From NCBI RefSeq assembly GCF_012395815.1, contig NZ_JAAZQQ010000001.1, positions 248,001-312,000 of the forward strand: a stretch of DNA of 64,000 bases, in the 5' to 3' direction. The position numbers were made by a program, and so were the translations under genes. This DNA is from Roseicyclus persicicus. GTDB lineage: Bacteria > Pseudomonadota > Alphaproteobacteria > Rhodobacterales > Rhodobacteraceae. Under the pieces are notes generated by a model, which was not told the DNA's origin, searched no databases, and saw nothing but the letters and a program-made list of their open reading frames with translations. Shown in pieces: positions 577 through 58,380 of this stretch; position 1 is the first letter of the stretch, and each line of letters opens with the position of its first letter.

Positions 577-580
<4 letters not shown>

Positions 581-1470
581 GCGACACCGCGCTCCATACG
601 CCCGAGACGCTCCGGTCCCGGTCCGAGACGGTCGCCGCGGCGCTGCCGGCCCTGATGGCCGACGCGCAGCACCTGTCGGCGACGGTGCTTCTGGGCGTGC
701 ACGGGCGCAAGCGGGCGGGCACGGGCGACGAGTTCTGGCAATACCGGCCTGCGCAGGCGGGCGACGCCTACCGCCAGATCGACTGGCGCCGCTCGGCGCG
801 GTCGGACGGGCATTTCATTCGCCAGACCGAATGGCAGGCCGCGCAGGCGGTGCTGATCGGGGTGGACGACGCGGCCTCGATGACCTTCACCGGGCACAAG
901 GGGCGGCCGTCCAAGCTCCGCCGCGCGCAGACGCTGGCGATGGCGCTCGCCATCATCGCGGTGCGGGGCGGCGAGCGGGTGGGCCTGACCCACCTGCCCG
1001 AACCGCCGCGGGGCGGCACGGCGCAGCTGATGCGGATGGCGCAGGCGCTGATGGACGGGCACGAGGCGGGCGACTACGGCGCGCCGCGGCCGCAGGTGAT
1101 GCCGATGGGCAGCCGGGCGGTGTTCCTGTCGGATTTCCTGGGCGACCCGGCCGCGATCGAGGCGGTGCTGGGCCGCGCCGCCGACCGCGACGTGCGCGGT
1201 GCGCTGGTGCAGATCCTCGACCCCGACGAGGAAGCCTTTCCCTTCGACGGGCGCACGGTGTTCGAGTCGATGACCGGCGCGATCCGCTTCGAGACGCTGA
1301 AGGCGAAGTCGCTGCGCGAGGCCTACCTGGAGCGGCTGGCCGAGCGGAAGGCACGGCTTCAGGAGATGTGCCGGCGGACCGGCTGGCGCTACCACCTGCA
1401 CCACACCGACCAGCCGGCGGAACCGGCGCTGCTGTGGCTCTACCGCGCGCTCGAGAAGGTGCGGGCGTGA
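577..1470 (+). CDS. DUF58 domain-containing protein
   Basis: 297-residue protein starting with TTG that overlaps the MoxR stop as TTGA. The DUF58 signature is visible around residues 43-77 ([21 protein letters not shown] followed by QIDWRRSAR). It is followed by a VWA-like fold with a D-D-A-S stretch in place of a full MIDAS. DUF58 proteins are regular partners of MoxR ATPases, consistent with this operon. No signal peptide or membrane segment is seen, so it is probably cytoplasmic. The biochemical role is not established. No ATG lies close by, and a GAGG about 7 nt upstream supports the TTG. Confidence 0.9.
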
Positions 1471-1477
1471 TGGCGGC

Positions 1478-1568
1478 GCAAGTTTCTTGCAAGAAACTTG
1501 CCAGAGCCTTGCAAGGCTCTGCCGCACGCCCTTGCAAGGGCGTGGCAAGACCCTTGCAAGGGTCTTGC
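1478..1568. repeat. Palindrome cluster 1: four adjacent palindromes on CTTGCAAG
   Basis: Four perfect palindromes lie almost end to end: 1478-1501 (24 bp), 1502-1521 (20 bp), 1525-1544 (20 bp) and 1545-1568 (24 bp). All share the central CTTGCAAG, but the arms differ (GCAAGTTT, CAGAGC, CACGCC, GCAAGACC). The run fills the gap between the DUF58 and DUF4159 genes inside one operon. It could fold as a series of RNA hairpins and so act as an attenuator or stabiliser, or as cruciforms in DNA. Clusters 2 and 3 have the same architecture with other cores. Confidence 0.9.
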
Positions 1569-1591: not shown

Positions 1592-4360
1592 ATGATTGCT
1601 AGCCTCGCCTTCGCCACGCCGCTGCTGCTAACCGCCCTGATCGCGCTGCCGGTGCTGTGGTGGATCCTCCGCGCCGTCCCGCCCGCGCCGATCCGCCGCC
1701 GCTTCCCCGGCGTCGCCCTCCTCCTCGGGCTCAAGGACGACGACAGCCAGACCGACAAGACGCCCTGGTGGCTCCTGCTGCTGCGCATGACCGCGCTCAC
1801 CGCCGCCATCATCGGCTTCGCGGGCCCGGTCCTGAACCCGCAGGCCGAGCGCGCGGGCGAGGGGCCGCTCCTGATCCTGATGGACAGCTCCTGGGCCTCG
1901 GCCCGCGACTGGTCCGACCGGCTCGACCGCGCCGGGCTCCTGCTCGACGAGGCGTCCCGCGCCGGCCGCCCCGTTGCACTGGTGCAGCTGACCGCGCTGC
2001 CTCCCGGCGACCTGGCGCTGCAATCCGCGAACGCCTGGGCGGCGCGGCTGCCGTCGCTGGAGCCCGCGCCCTACGCCCCCGACCTCGCCGCCGCCACCGG
2101 CTGGGCCGCGGGGCTCGACGGCCCGCTCGAGACCTGGTGGATCGCCGACGGCCTCGACCACGCGGGCCGCGCCGACCTGACCGCCGCGCTGCAGGCGCTC
2201 GGGCCCCTGTCCGTGTTCCAGGGCAGCCGGGACGTGCTGGCGCTGGCGCCGCCGCGCTTCGAGGACGGCACCGTGCGCGCCGCCCTGACCCGGCTCGGCC
2301 AGCTTGCGCCCCTCAGCGTCGAGGTGATCGCCCACGGCCTCGACCCCGCCGGCATCCCCCGCGACCTTGCCCGCGCGACGGCCAGCTTCGACGCCGGCGC
2401 GGCGGAGGCCGAGGCCGAGTTCGACCTGCCGCCCGAGCTGCGCAACCGCATCACCCGCTTCGAGGTCGCGGGCCTGCGCGGCGCCGGCACCGTCGCGCTG
2501 ACCGACGACGCGCTGCAGCGCCGGCAGGTCGCCCTGATCTCGGCCGGGGCCGAGGACGAGCAGCAGGCGCTCCTGTCGCCGCTGCACTACCTGCGCCAGG
2601 CGCTCGACCCGACTGCCGACCTGATCGAGGGCGCGCTGTCGGACATGCTGCTGGCCAGCCCCGACGTGATCATCCTCGCCGACATCGCCACCCTCTCGCC
2701 CGAGGAGGAGGACGGCCTGGTCGCCTGGGTCGACAACGGCGGCCTTCTCGTGCGCTTCGCCGGCCCCCGCCTCGCCGCCTCCGACGTCGCCCGCGACGCG
2801 GCGGGGCCGCTGATGCCCGTGCGGCTGCGCGAGGGCGGGCGCAGCGTCGGCGGTGCCATGTCCTGGGGCGAGCCCAAGGCCCTCAGCCCCTTCCCCGACG
2901 GCTCGCCGTTCTTCGGCCTCGCCATCCCGGCCGACGTGCAGGTCAGCGCACAGGTCATGGCCCAGCCCGACCCCGAGCTGTCGGCGCGCACCATCGCGTC
3001 GCTGACCGACGGCACGCCGCTCGTCACCCGCGCCGCCCACGGCCAGGGCTCGGTGGTGCTGTTCCACGTCACCGCCAACGCCGAGTGGTCGAGCCTGCCG
3101 CTCTCGGGCCTCTTCGTGCAGATGCTGGAGCGGCTGGCCATATCCACCCGGCCCGTCGCCCCCGACGCCGAGGATCTCGCCGGCACTGTCTGGACGCCCG
3201 AGCAGGTGCTGGACGGCTTCGGCACGCTGCGCGACGCGGGCACCCGCCCCGGCATCGAGGGCGCCGTGCTGGCCGAGGCGCCGCTCTCCGCCGACCTCCT
3301 GCCCGGTCTCTACGCCGCCGAGGACCGGCGCATCGCCCGCAACGTCATCACCGCCGACACGGTGCTCGCCCCCGCCGACTGGCCCGCCTCCGTGCCGGTC
3401 GAGGGGATGGAGGTGATCGCGCCCACCGACCTGATGGCCGCCTTCCTGACCGGGGCGCTGGCGCTCCTGTTGCTCGATGCCATCGCATCGCTCTGGCTGG
3501 CCGGCCGGCTCTCGGGTCTGGCGCGGGGCGCGGCGATCCTTGCCGTCGTGCTGGCCTTGCCGCAGGGCGGCCAGGCGCAGGAGGCGACGGCCCTGACGCC
3601 GGAGGAGGAGCTGGCGGTGCTCGCCACCCGCGACGTGGTGCTGGCCTATGTGCTGACCGGCGACGCCGAGCTCGACGAGATGTCGCGCGCGGGGCTGCAG
3701 GGCCTGTCGAACGTGCTGTGGCAGCGCACCTCGGTCGAGCCCGGCCCGCCCCTCGGCGTCGACCTCGAGCGCGACGAGCTCAGCTTCTTCCCGATGCTCT
3801 ACTGGCCCGTCTCGCCCGACCAGTCGCTTCCTTCGGCCGCCGCCTACCGCCGGCTGAACGACTACCTCCGCTCGGGCGGGATGATCGTGTTCGACACGCG
3901 CGACGCCAACATCGGCGGCTTCGGCTCGGGCACGCCCGAGGGGCGGCGCCTGCGCCTGCTCGCCGCGCCGCTGGATATCCCGCCGCTGGAGCCGATCCCG
4001 CCGGACCACATCCTGACCCGCACCTTCTACCTCTTGCAGGATTTCCCCGGCCGCCACCTCGGCCGCGACGTCTGGGTCGAGGCGGCGCCGCCCGACGCCC
4101 AGCAGGTCGAGGGGATGCCCTTCCGCAACCTCAATGACGGGGTGACGCCGGTGCTGATCGGGGGCAACGACTGGGCCGCGGCCTGGGCGCAGGACGAGGC
4201 CGGGCGCGCGCTCTTCCCGGTCGGGCGCGGCGCGACCGGCGAACGCCAGCGCGAGATCGCGCTGCGCTTCGGGGTGAACCTCGTGATGCATGTGCTGTCG
4301 GGCAACTACAAGTCCGACCAGGTCCACGTGCCGGCCCTCCTCGAACGGCTGGGGCAATAG
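1592..4360 (+). CDS. BatA-like/DUF4159 membrane protein
   Basis: 922-residue protein. The N-terminus has the aerotolerance (BatA-type) layout: a hydrophobic helix at about 5-27, a short RRRFPG loop and a second helix at about 60-80. It is followed by a VWA-like region (ILMDSS near residue 92). A long periplasmic part follows, then helices near 614-635 and 643-660, and a C-terminal DUF4159 domain (about 670-920). DUF4159 is a glutamine-amidotransferase-like fold without known activity. MoxR, DUF58 and DUF4159 genes commonly occur together in alphaproteobacteria. The function is inferred only as envelope-associated. A 2-nt gap separates it from the next gene. Confidence 0.88.
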   Translation: MIASLAFATPLLLTALIALPVLWWILRAVPPAPIRRRFPGVALLLGLKDDDSQTDKTPWWLLLLRMTALTAAIIGFAGPVLNPQAERAGEGPLLILMDSSWASARDWSDRLDRAGLLLDEASRAGRPVALVQLTALPPGDLALQSANAWAARLPSLEPAPYAPDLAAATGWAAGLDGPLETWWIADGLDHAGRADLTAALQALGPLSVFQGSRDVLALAPPRFEDGTVRAALTRLGQLAPLSVEVIAHGLDPAGIPRDLARATASFDAGAAEAEAEFDLPPELRNRITRFEVAGLRGAGTVALTDDALQRRQVALISAGAEDEQQALLSPLHYLRQALDPTADLIEGALSDMLLASPDVIILADIATLSPEEEDGLVAWVDNGGLLVRFAGPRLAASDVARDAAGPLMPVRLREGGRSVGGAMSWGEPKALSPFPDGSPFFGLAIPADVQVSAQVMAQPDPELSARTIASLTDGTPLVTRAAHGQGSVVLFHVTANAEWSSLPLSGLFVQMLERLAISTRPVAPDAEDLAGTVWTPEQVLDGFGTLRDAGTRPGIEGAVLAEAPLSADLLPGLYAAEDRRIARNVITADTVLAPADWPASVPVEGMEVIAPTDLMAAFLTGALALLLLDAIASLWLAGRLSGLARGAAILAVVLALPQGGQAQEATALTPEEELAVLATRDVVLAYVLTGDAELDEMSRAGLQGLSNVLWQRTSVEPGPPLGVDLERDELSFFPMLYWPVSPDQSLPSAAAYRRLNDYLRSGGMIVFDTRDANIGGFGSGTPEGRRLRLLAAPLDIPPLEPIPPDHILTRTFYLLQDFPGRHLGRDVWVEAAPPDAQQVEGMPFRNLNDGVTPVLIGGNDWAAAWAQDEAGRALFPVGRGATGERQREIALRFGVNLVMHVLSGNYKSDQVHVPALLERLGQ

Positions 4361-7481: not shown

Positions 7482-8927
7482 ATGGAGATGCCAGCCCCCG
7501 ACGCCGGGATTTTGTCCCGCAAGAACAGGATCGTGGAACGCCTGCGCGCCGCGCTGCCGGCCGCCGCGGTGATTCACGACGAGGCCGAGGTGCGCGCCTA
7601 TGAATGCGACGCGCTGACCGCCTACCGCTGCCCGCCGCTGGCCGTGGTGCTGCCCGCCTCGACCGAGGAGGTGGCGACCGCGCTGAGGATCTGCCACGCC
7701 GAGGGCGTGCCGGTGGTGCCGCGCGGGTCGGGCACGTCGCTGGCAGGTGGCGCGCTGCCGACGGCGGACAGCGTGATCCTGGGCGTGTCGCGCCTGAACC
7801 GGGTGCTGGAGACGGATTACGACAACCGCTTCATCCGGGTGCAGTCGGGGCGCACGAACCTGAGCGTCACCGGCGCGGTGGAGCAGGAGGAATTCTTCTA
7901 CGCGCCCGACCCGTCGTCGCAGCTGGCCTGCGCCATCGCGGGCAACATCGCGATGAACTCGGGCGGGGCGCATTGCCTGAAATACGGCGTGACGACCAAC
8001 AACCTGCTGGGCGTGACCATGGTCACGATGGACGGCACGGTCATGGAGATCGGCGGCGCGCATCTGGACGCGGGCGGCTATGACCTGCTGGGCGTGATCT
8101 GCGGGTCCGAGGGGCAGCTGGGTGTCGTGACCGAGGCGACGCTGCGCATCCTGCGCAAGCCCGAGGGCGCGCGGCCGGTGCTGATCGGCTACGACAGCAA
8201 CGAGGTGGCGGGCGCCTGTGTGTCCGACATCATCAAGGCGGGCGTCCTGCCGGTGGCGATCGAGTTCATGGACCGGCCCTGCATCGAGGCGACCGAGGCC
8301 TTCGCCAAGGCCGGCTACCCGATGTGCGAGGCGCTGCTGATCGTCGAGGTCGAGGGCAGCCCCGCCGAGATCGACGAGCAGCTGGGCCTGATCATGCAGA
8401 TCGCGCGGCGCCACAACCCCGTCGAGCTGCGCGAGGCGCAGTCGGAGGACGAGGCCAAGCGCATCTGGCTGGGCCGGAAATCGGCCTTCGGCGCGATGGG
8501 GCAGATCAACGACTACATGTGCCTCGACGGGACCATCCCGGTGTCGGAGCTGCCCTACGTGCTGCGCAGGATCGGGGAGATGTCGAAGGAGTACGGGCTG
8601 GGCGTCGCCAACGTGTTCCACGCCGGCGACGGCAACATGCACCCGCTGATCCTGTTCGATGCCAACAAGCCCGGCGACCTGGAGCTGTGCGAGGCCTTCG
8701 GGGCCGACATCCTGAAGCTCTGCGTCGAGGTCGGCGGCTGCCTCACCGGCGAGCACGGGGTGGGGATCGAGAAGCGCGACCTGATGGTCACGCAGTTCGC
8801 GCCCGAGGACCTGGAGGCGCAGATGCGGGTGAAGGACGTGTTCGATCCCGACTGGCTGTTGAACCCCGCCAAGGTGTTCCCGCTGGCGGCGTCGCGTGCG
8901 CGGCGCGAGAGGGCTTTCGCCGCCTGA
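7482..8927 (+). CDS. glcD: Glycolate oxidase subunit GlcD (FAD-linked)
   Basis: 481 residues. The FAD_binding_4 domain is at the N-terminus (PRGSGTSLAGGAL around residue 78) and the FAD-oxidase C domain follows, with the VFHAGDGNMHPLILFD and TGEHGVGIEKR motifs near the end. With GlcE and GlcF it oxidises glycolate to glyoxylate and feeds electrons to the respiratory chain. The start at 7482 was chosen because GAGGAGG sits 6-12 nt upstream; an in-frame ATG at 7437 would lie in the regulatory repeat. First gene of the glc operon. Confidence 0.95.
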   Translation: MEMPAPDAGILSRKNRIVERLRAALPAAAVIHDEAEVRAYECDALTAYRCPPLAVVLPASTEEVATALRICHAEGVPVVPRGSGTSLAGGALPTADSVILGVSRLNRVLETDYDNRFIRVQSGRTNLSVTGAVEQEEFFYAPDPSSQLACAIAGNIAMNSGGAHCLKYGVTTNNLLGVTMVTMDGTVMEIGGAHLDAGGYDLLGVICGSEGQLGVVTEATLRILRKPEGARPVLIGYDSNEVAGACVSDIIKAGVLPVAIEFMDRPCIEATEAFAKAGYPMCEALLIVEVEGSPAEIDEQLGLIMQIARRHNPVELREAQSEDEAKRIWLGRKSAFGAMGQINDYMCLDGTIPVSELPYVLRRIGEMSKEYGLGVANVFHAGDGNMHPLILFDANKPGDLELCEAFGADILKLCVEVGGCLTGEHGVGIEKRDLMVTQFAPEDLEAQMRVKDVFDPDWLLNPAKVFPLAASRARRERAFAA

Positions 8928-8941
8928 CGGCGGCGACCCGT

Positions 8942-8997
8942 GCGAGGGGGCGCTGCCCCCTCGCGCTCCCCCGGAGTATTTGGAAAGCAAAGATGGG
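8942..8997 (+). repeat. Hairpin + GAGTATTT-tail dispersed element, copy A
   Basis: A 10-bp perfect stem with a GCT loop (8942-8964) is followed by CCCCCGGAGTATTT and then GGAAAGCAAAGATG, ending at 8997. It lies between glcD and glcE, and its tail runs up to the GlcE ribosome-binding site. It is the most complete of six copies in the window. Confidence 0.85.
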
Positions 8998-24192: not shown

Positions 24193-24210
24193 CCGCGTAG
24201 AGCGCGGAAT

Positions 24211-24257
24211 GCCCCACAACGGCTTCCTGGCGTGGGGTGATATTTTCCAATGGAGCA
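24211..24257 (+). promoter_or_regulatory. SAM/SAH riboswitch upstream of metK
   Basis: A stem CCCCAC/GTGGGG (24212-24217 with 24232-24237) encloses the loop AACGGCTTCCTGGC. It is followed by a spacer and AATGGAGCA (24249-24257). CACAACGGCTTCCTGGCGTG and the downstream TGGAGCA are the conserved core of the SAM/SAH riboswitch class known from Rhodobacterales metK leaders. The GGAG is the ribosome-binding site, drawn into the pseudoknot when ligand binds. The spacer here (TGATATTTTCC) is longer than in the structure I recall. Confidence 0.85.
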
Positions 24258-29566: not shown

Positions 29567-29634
29567 GCGTTTTCCTCGAGGAAAACGCAAGGGAAACCTC
29601 GAGGTTTCCCGCGCGAAAAACTCGAGTTTTTCGC
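29567..29634. repeat. Palindrome cluster 2: three palindromes on CTCGAG
   Basis: Three perfect palindromes in a row: 29567-29588 (22 bp, arms GCGTTTTC), 29591-29610 (20 bp, arms GGGAAAC) and 29613-29634 (22 bp, arms GCGAAAAA). All are centred on CTCGAG. They start 5 nt after the trmB stop, ahead of the aminotransferase gene. The A/T-tract arms stand out against the GC-rich background. Same design as clusters 1 and 3. Confidence 0.9.
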
Positions 29635-41157: not shown

Positions 41158-41212
41158 GCGCTGCGTCTCGTGGAAGCGGAGGGGTTTCGCCCGCTTGTGC
41201 GGGCGACCGAAG

Positions 41213-41268
41213 CGAGGGGGGCTGTCTGCCCCCCTCGACCCCCCGAGAGTATTTGGAAAGCAAAGATG
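41213..41268 (+). repeat. Hairpin + GAGTATTT-tail dispersed element, copy C
   Basis: A 10-bp stem CGAGGGGGGC/GCCCCCCTCG with loop TGTCT (41213-41237) is followed by the tail GAGTATTTGGAAAGCAAAG + ATG (41247-41268). It lies between soeA and the hydrolase gene but reads on the opposite strand to both, unlike the other copies. Confidence 0.85.
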
Positions 41269-58287: not shown

Positions 58288-58380
58288 GCGCGAACCTGCA
58301 GTTTCGCGCACCGGAAAACTCGAGTTTTCCGTCTGGGAAAACTGCAGTTTTCCCAGACGTTTTGCTGCAGCAAGACGTCT
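58288..58380. repeat. Palindrome cluster 3: four palindromes on CTGCAG/CTCGAG
   Basis: 58288-58309 (22 bp, one mismatched pair, core CTGCAG), 58312-58331 (20 bp, core CTCGAG), 58330-58359 (30 bp perfect, core CTGCAG) and 58355-58380 (26 bp, one mismatched pair, core CTGCAG), the last three slightly overlapping. The cluster fills the gap between two convergent genes and runs into the stop codon of the CDP-alcohol gene. Same design as clusters 1 and 2, with mixed cores. Confidence 0.9.

Follow-up and report, generated by a model that had tools for sequence, protein, structure and literature searches.

REP elements and BIMEs, including the repeats tagged GTAG or CGTC, are described in the parts of the literature used here as extragenic palindromes of many copies, which are found chiefly after genes, where the gap is convergent or co-directional (PMC3733652, PMC12306157). 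According to the same portion of the first source, CGTC repeats are common in alphaproteobacteria and come without a dedicated transposase (PMC3733652); that paper contains none of the words Rhodobacter, Roseobacter, Ruegeria and Dinoroseobacter. Hairpin-cluster terminators, in the sections of Gupta and Pal (2021, PMC8355165) on which we draw, consist of several short hairpins less than 15 nt apart that follow soon after the stop codon, and poly-U is dispensable. For intrinsic terminators, an excerpted account reports that stem pairs evolve through disruptive and compensatory mutations with short-lived intermediates, G-U being the commonest intermediate in Bacillus cereus terminators (PMC5381666).

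The window analysed here is a stretch of 64,000 nucleotides from Roseicyclus persicicus (contig NZ_JAAZQQ010000001.1, positions 248,001 to 312,000). It contains a tandem array of palindromes (Table 1), with centre spacings of 22, 23 and 22 and a sole break at 1522-1524. The preliminary description had reported four perfect palindromes of 20-24 bp with one 3-nt break, a shared core and different arms, located between two co-directional genes; the coordinates confirm all of this, both genes being on the + strand. We provisionally take the upstream gene to be of the DUF58 type and the downstream gene to be of the DUF4159 type. Folding into consecutive hairpins, also suggested before, is what the predictions return: the RNA fold of 1468-1594 gives four successive hairpins (-76.3 kcal/mol, z -5.2), as does the DNA fold of 1478-1568 (z -7.1), and the predicted loop is UGCA, inside UUGCAA. 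By sequence inspection the array has no U-tract, as no TTTT run follows the last hairpin on either strand, and it does not have the classical intrinsic terminator combination of a GC-rich hairpin and a U-tract. A known RNA family was rejected because an Rfam scan found nothing above threshold at the array; the only above-threshold Rfam match of the window is a SAM-SAH riboswitch (RF01727) at 24208-24257 (+) with 61 bits. A plasmid- or phage-borne origin was likewise rejected, since the 123-bp stretch is unmatched in plasmid and phage collections.

Table 1. Coordinates of the palindromes, hairpins and neighbouring genes in the window and in other stretches of the survey (L numbers).
Feature	Sequence	Position	Strand	Length	Remarks
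Unit 1, perfect palindrome	window	1478..1501		24 bp	arms GTTTC/GAAAC, core CTTGCAAG
Unit 2, perfect palindrome	window	1502..1521		20 bp	arms AGAGC/GCTCT, core CTTGCAAG
Unit 3, perfect palindrome	window	1525..1544		20 bp	arms ACGCC/GGCGT, core CTTGCAAG
Unit 4, perfect palindrome	window	1545..1568		24 bp	arms AGACC/GGTCT, core CTTGCAAG
Upstream gene	window	577..1470	+		stop 7 nt before the array
Downstream gene	window	1592..4360	+		start 23 nt after the array
Class B array	window	29567..29634			three CTCGAG-core palindromes, 23-bp spacing; 5 nt after stop codon, co-directional junction
Class B array	window	58312..58359			two perfect palindromes (CTCGAG, CTGCAG cores), 23-bp spacing; convergent junction
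Class B hairpins	L029	12889-12983			variable loops
Class B hairpins	L023	5524-5590			variable loops
Class B hairpins	L118	4993-5084			variable loops
GC-rich hairpin pair	window	8917-8964			
GC-rich hairpin pair	window	41187-41237			
GC-rich hairpin pair	L018	2580-2625			
GC-rich hairpin pair	L115	16077-16126			

No published description of these arrays was found among the open-access papers searched. With REP elements and BIMEs, so far as the cited parts characterise them, they share that short palindromic repeats in many copies lie outside genes at 3' ends, where RNA hairpins are possible. In contrast to the REP sequences so described, the arrays are perfectly symmetric to the centre, their stem sequence is free while the loop is fixed, and the units keep a tandem register of 22-23 bp. 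A shared stem consensus is lacking too, only the core being shared by the units, and by eye no 4-nt GTAG or CGTC tag was seen between units, where linkers of about 0-3 nt leave no room for one. The RAYT/Y1 transposase that characterises the GTAG type (PF01797) had no match in any of 18 genomes, although the same family was found in 5 of 14 control genomes, and mobilisation by such an enzyme was rejected. Like the hairpin clusters of PMC8355165, in the form given in the sections used, the arrays place at least two hairpins, separated by less than 15 nt, no farther than 80 nt from a stop codon. That study, in the same sections, is a prediction over all hairpins, whereas the arrays form one repeat family with fixed loop and register and covarying arms, and could act from both sides, with termination being putative. 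Compensatory changes of stem pairs connect the arrays with intrinsic terminators as portrayed in the excerpt of PMC5381666; in contrast to these, G-U is almost absent and the window array has no U-tract.

The family is found throughout the genome. In the 3.71-Mb sequence CTTGCAAG occurs in 117 copies against 9 for the reversed pattern, and TTGCAA pairs 21-23 bp apart number 84, whereas the reversed pattern gives 0; most of the 84 belong to arrays of 3-5 palindromes. Arrays, defined as perfect palindromes 14 bp or longer whose centres lie 20-25 bp apart, were surveyed in the window and 35 further stretches (744 kb in total), most of which had been picked for holding CTTGCAAG. This sample contains 32 arrays of two to five units with 115 palindromes in total, while five first-order Markov copies of the same 744 kb gave one two-unit array altogether. 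Chance origin was rejected on these numbers, and the excess of such runs over a composition-matched null, which the preliminary description had proposed as a check, is large. The 11 stretches picked regardless of matches (L016, L122-L131; 203 kb) hold one array. TTGCAA is the core of 27 of the 32 arrays (class A) and CTCGAG or CTGCAG that of the other five (class B). Since 76 of the 84 adjacent unit pairs genome-wide lie in the 27 class A arrays, roughly 30 class A arrays are expected in the genome. At one convergent junction (L114 9662-9816) there are two separate class A arrays, of two and three units, where the related genomes G003 and G004 have one array.

Class B has features of its own. 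In the window an imperfect hairpin at 58288-58309 adjoins one class B array, and a tandem-hairpin scan found neighbouring hairpins with non-palindromic loops at class B arrays. Class B hairpins (arms e.g. GGAAAAC/GTTTTCC) carry the loops TGCA, TCGA, TGCG, CGCA or CCGA, so that class B, unlike class A, tolerates non-palindromic loops. The same scan also returned a recurring GC-rich hairpin pair with non-palindromic loops and one arm type, GCGAGGGGGC/GCCCCCTCGC, which is a possible third gene-end element.

The symmetry of the arms was assessed on units chosen solely by TTGCAA cores 21-24 bp apart in this genome (G000), in G011 and in Roseibacterium sp. SDUM158016 (G332), with the arms ignored. 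Symmetry at positions 4-9 was found in 170 of 175 units, with 50 different 5-nt arms, compared with an arm match of about 30% per position at 44 solitary TTGCAA sites. Position 4 is mostly G, position 8 mostly C and position 9 mostly T; the stem otherwise varies. In a formal covariation analysis of 65 distinct units from this genome, pairing was present in 98.5% of cells, 176 cells were changed on both sides, and the covariation score was 0.99 against 0.22 for shuffled units and at most 0.19 with the partner slid. Viral contigs provide a control for the symmetry test: TTGCAA triples at array spacing occur there in at least 120 stretches, and palindromic arms were seen at 0 of the 80 loci listed. 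Asymmetric units are rare (10 of 314, none in this genome), and changed pairs accordingly offer few cases for using G-U as a test of RNA. On the transcribed strand of co-directional arrays, Watson-Crick pairs account for 720 of 726 stem pairs and G-U for 2 of 726; in this genome all 240 of 240 are Watson-Crick and none is G-U. The scarcity of G-U implies either that both strands matter, or that DNA acts, or that some process favours exact symmetry.

Random arms had been proposed at the outset; the arms do vary, but GGCTC, GGGTC, GGGCG and others recur in many arrays. The right-arm order GGGTC-GGGCG-GGCTC-GAAAC moreover recurs, whole or in part, at several unrelated loci of this genome, and arrays have thus been copied between sites. 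The accompanying view, that symmetry is kept rather than one unit duplicated, holds in so far as arms change on two sides and so many different arms are symmetric, but copying of arrays took place as well. An apparent avoidance of equal arms within arrays (in this genome 1 of 151 unit pairs, where 6.1 would be expected; P 0.009) was rejected, as it was lost after deduplication: with arrays sharing at least two arms counted once, equal-arm pairs number 0-1 against 1.0-1.7 expected, which is not significant. The pooled value for three genomes (1 of 236 against 10.2 expected) suffers from the same flaw of arm-sharing arrays.

Comparison between species adds a second line of evidence. Altogether 26 groups of orthologous arrays link this genome with G003, G004, G011 and G332, and among the arrays fetched at least 12 of 18 in G003, at least 9 of 19 in G004 and at least 9 of 18 in G011 correspond to one of this genome's 27. 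To the earlier question whether positions or only architecture are conserved, the answer is that both are. Two-sided and one-sided stem changes stand at 46:3, 34:0 and 20:5 between this genome and G003, G004 and G011, respectively; among the three closer species they stand at 8:3, 3:6 and 6:4, so that one-sided intermediates become visible at short distance. An asymmetric unit in G011 (L175), read against L030 of this genome, resembles a deletion between two cores.

A comparison by position covered G003, G004 and G011 in 28 ungapped comparisons of arrays with equal unit number and equal spacing only. Divergence is 0% in the loop, a value favoured by ascertainment, since the search for arrays relied on their core, 0.7-2.7% at stem positions 4-9, 8.7% at position 10, 24-25% in the linkers and 22.5% outside, so that the conservation of loop and stem exceeds that of linkers at least tenfold. 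Fourfold sites of the neighbouring genes differ by 13-28% among the same genomes. A scan of the array surroundings for paired arms, whatever their core, returned 309 TTGCAA units and 6 in-register units with other cores, and array spacing stays constant at 22-23 bp though palindrome lengths differ. A fixed loop, a free but paired stem and near-neutral linkers together make the pattern of a selected hairpin; judged by these sequence comparisons, the pairing of the arms is under selection.

The arrays are located at the 3' ends of genes. With genes called by a simple codon-model gene finder, 20 of the 32 arrays are convergent, 12 co-directional and none divergent, while adjacent gene pairs in the same stretches comprise 108 convergent, 496 co-directional and 110 divergent ones. 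As two arrays share one junction, the 20 convergent arrays represent 19 junctions; arrays thus occur at 19 of 108 convergent and 0 of 110 divergent junctions (P 7e-7). Stop codons facing arrays lie 2-12 nt from the array edge in 42 of 52 cases, and across five genomes the first unit centre of class A arrays lies a median of 19 nt from the stop codon (97 of 132 within 13-25). The median convergent gap is 15 nt without arrays and 100 with arrays; since array-free gaps are so short, the proximity of arrays to stop codons may be no more than what is left of a short old gap. In G011, the 17 arrays divide into 10 convergent, 6 co-directional and 1 typed divergent. In other genera, 24 rows, with one array counted twice and a weakly trained gene finder, comprise 13 convergent, 9 co-directional and 2 divergent ones. 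In a crude scan for terminators, 8 of 19 array-bearing convergent junctions scored positive, compared with 16 of 89 array-free ones; for co-directional gaps the figures were 4 of 12 with and 28 of 231 without arrays. This says little, as hairpins are supplied by the arrays themselves.

Junctions orthologous to that of the window array differ among relatives. Among 80 relatives of the downstream gene, a TTGCAA array in the gap was found only in the Roseicyclus MAG McBI.24 (L032); in the close relatives L033 and L034 the two genes overlap and leave no gap. The upstream gene was placed in 51 of the 80, and 41 of these 51 have gaps of at most 18 nt, as an upper bound. Nioella ostreopsis (L048) has four TTCGAA units in two pairs at the same junction. 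In G261 (L133), located independently by pattern, the same four TTCGAA units are present, one with a changed core; G261 is probably close to Nioella, given the similarity between its TTGCAA pairs and those in the L048 genome. With TTGCAA in this genome and TTCGAA in Nioella, one junction thus carries tandem palindromes with genus-dependent cores. Other hairpins also occur at the junction, just before position 4001 in both cases: a perfect palindrome centred on CATATG in L039 and two AT-rich hairpins in L050. Two genera share a second junction, at which a TTGCAA array adjoins a homologous gene of some 50 residues (L019 13384-13471 in this genome, L161 1494-1536 in G261). At another locus an array is simply missing, in L168 of G011 compared with L029 of this genome, while the flanks are alignable.

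Within the genus, this genome, G003, G004 and G011 have 58-84 TTGCAA pairs and nine other genomes 1-4, so that carriers and non-carriers coexist in one genus. Roseibacterium sp. SDUM158016 has 21 pairs. Across 292 genomes of the order, at least 10 TTGCAA pairs were found in nine (G000, G057, G115, G178, G204, G258, G261, G276, G281), with 0-1 in controls. Perfect-palindrome arrays were seen at 4 of 4 TTGCAA loci in G281 and in G057, at 3 of 4 in G261 and at 0 of 4 in G115. The TTGCAA pairs of G115 (genus g52) were rejected as arrays, the arms being unpaired in the 18 pairs listed; this genome has TTTGCAAA-like boxes at 21-22 bp spacing in unpaired surroundings, which is a different motif. At least 10 TTCGAA pairs were likewise found in nine of the 292 genomes (G057, G122, G192, G208, G212, G253, G261, G291, G326), again with 0-1 in controls, and the fetched TTCGAA loci held perfect-palindrome arrays in 4 of 4 cases each in G192, G261 and G326 and in 1 of 4 in G253.

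We thus deal with a genome-wide family at gene 3' ends, with covarying stems, a conserved loop, conserved spacing and conserved orthologous junctions. Our preferred reading, to which we assign a probability of about 0.5, is a dispersed, selected family of hairpin arrays that would act as an RNA barrier and/or terminator. Each unit would form a stem of about 8-10 bp with the fixed self-complementary loop UUGCAA (or UGCA, should the inner U-A pairs form), with 2-5 such units in succession at 22-23 nt. In the transcript, these hairpins may block 3'-5' exonucleases and/or terminate transcription without a U-tract. Since palindrome and loop are identical on both strands, one array could serve both mRNAs of a convergent pair. 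In the operon of the window, the array would set or shield the 3' end of the upstream part, and it would separate that part from the downstream one. Paired arms of varying sequence point to an extruded hairpin rather than to reading of the double strand, and hairpins should form most easily in RNA. Against the preferred reading stand the near-absence of G-U, the one-sided changes in the closest species, the window array without a U-tract, and the few arrays of relatives typed divergent (1 of 17 in G011, 2 of 24 rows in other genera).

The missing G-U pairs make action at the DNA level the main rival, which we consider improbable rather than negligible. Here DNA hairpins, cruciforms or a tandem binding array would work where transcription units end; they might take up supercoils between convergent genes, for instance, or bind a nucleoid protein or a topoisomerase. 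Some REP arrays at convergent ends are bound by gyrase. Near-complete Watson-Crick symmetry, co-directional arrays included, would be expected from such an element, the spacing of 22-23 bp (about two helical turns) is held despite differing palindrome lengths, and the predicted DNA fold is stable. However, a double-strand-binding protein needs no arms that are free yet complementary, extrusion of cruciforms as short as 20-24 bp is generally considered difficult, and the 3'-end location fits RNA at least equally well. Clearly less probable is a REP-like repeat without host function, which would spread by copying, survive where it is harmless (at 3' ends) and owe its symmetry to template switching in replication. 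Hairpins can be created and maintained by template switching, as stated in the part of PMC8794818 consulted, and the identical arm order at unrelated loci, the mixture of carriers and non-carriers in one genus and the clean presence or absence of an array between G011 and this genome all suit such a repeat. Yet stems and loops evolve far more slowly than linkers and fourfold sites, while selection-free symmetric repair should allow almost neutral change of stem pairs; between G003 and G004, 11 of 264 stem pair positions changed, compared with 25.6% at fourfold sites. The result of the Y1 transposase search also speaks against it. Least likely of all, and in our view very improbable, is an attenuator specific to this operon, by which the array would lower or regulate the downstream relative to the upstream gene. 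The array does part genes that overlap in L033 and L034, and TTCGAA palindromes recur at the same junction in L048 and L133; but about 30 array loci exist in this genome, mostly convergent, with nothing downstream to attenuate. The tuning of the DUF4159 half of the operon, which the preliminary description had put forward as a possible role, therefore finds no support in that form: with 20 of 32 arrays at convergent gene pairs it would be at most a local consequence.

More tentatively, and with rather less confidence than in the preferred reading, the arrays may represent a so far undescribed class of two-strand gene-end elements, with a 22-23 nt register, pairing required on both strands, even where a gene lies on one strand only, and a self-complementary loop that would be read by some factor and differs between genera. 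TTGCAA and TTCGAA by genus, once at one and the same junction, together with CTCGAG/CTGCAG in the second class, look as if loop and reader had changed together. If the preferred reading is true, certain Rhodobacteraceae label a subset of their gene ends, for the most part convergent, with a repeat that bears the signature of a selected structure. This repeat combines a fixed loop, covarying stems and fixed spacing, yet has neither an Rfam family nor a Y1 transposase. The near-absence of G-U poses a sharp question of RNA or DNA. With about 30 loci, carriers and non-carriers, and junctions with, without or with another core, the arrays would constitute a natural experiment on how convergent transcripts are ended or protected in GC-rich bacteria.
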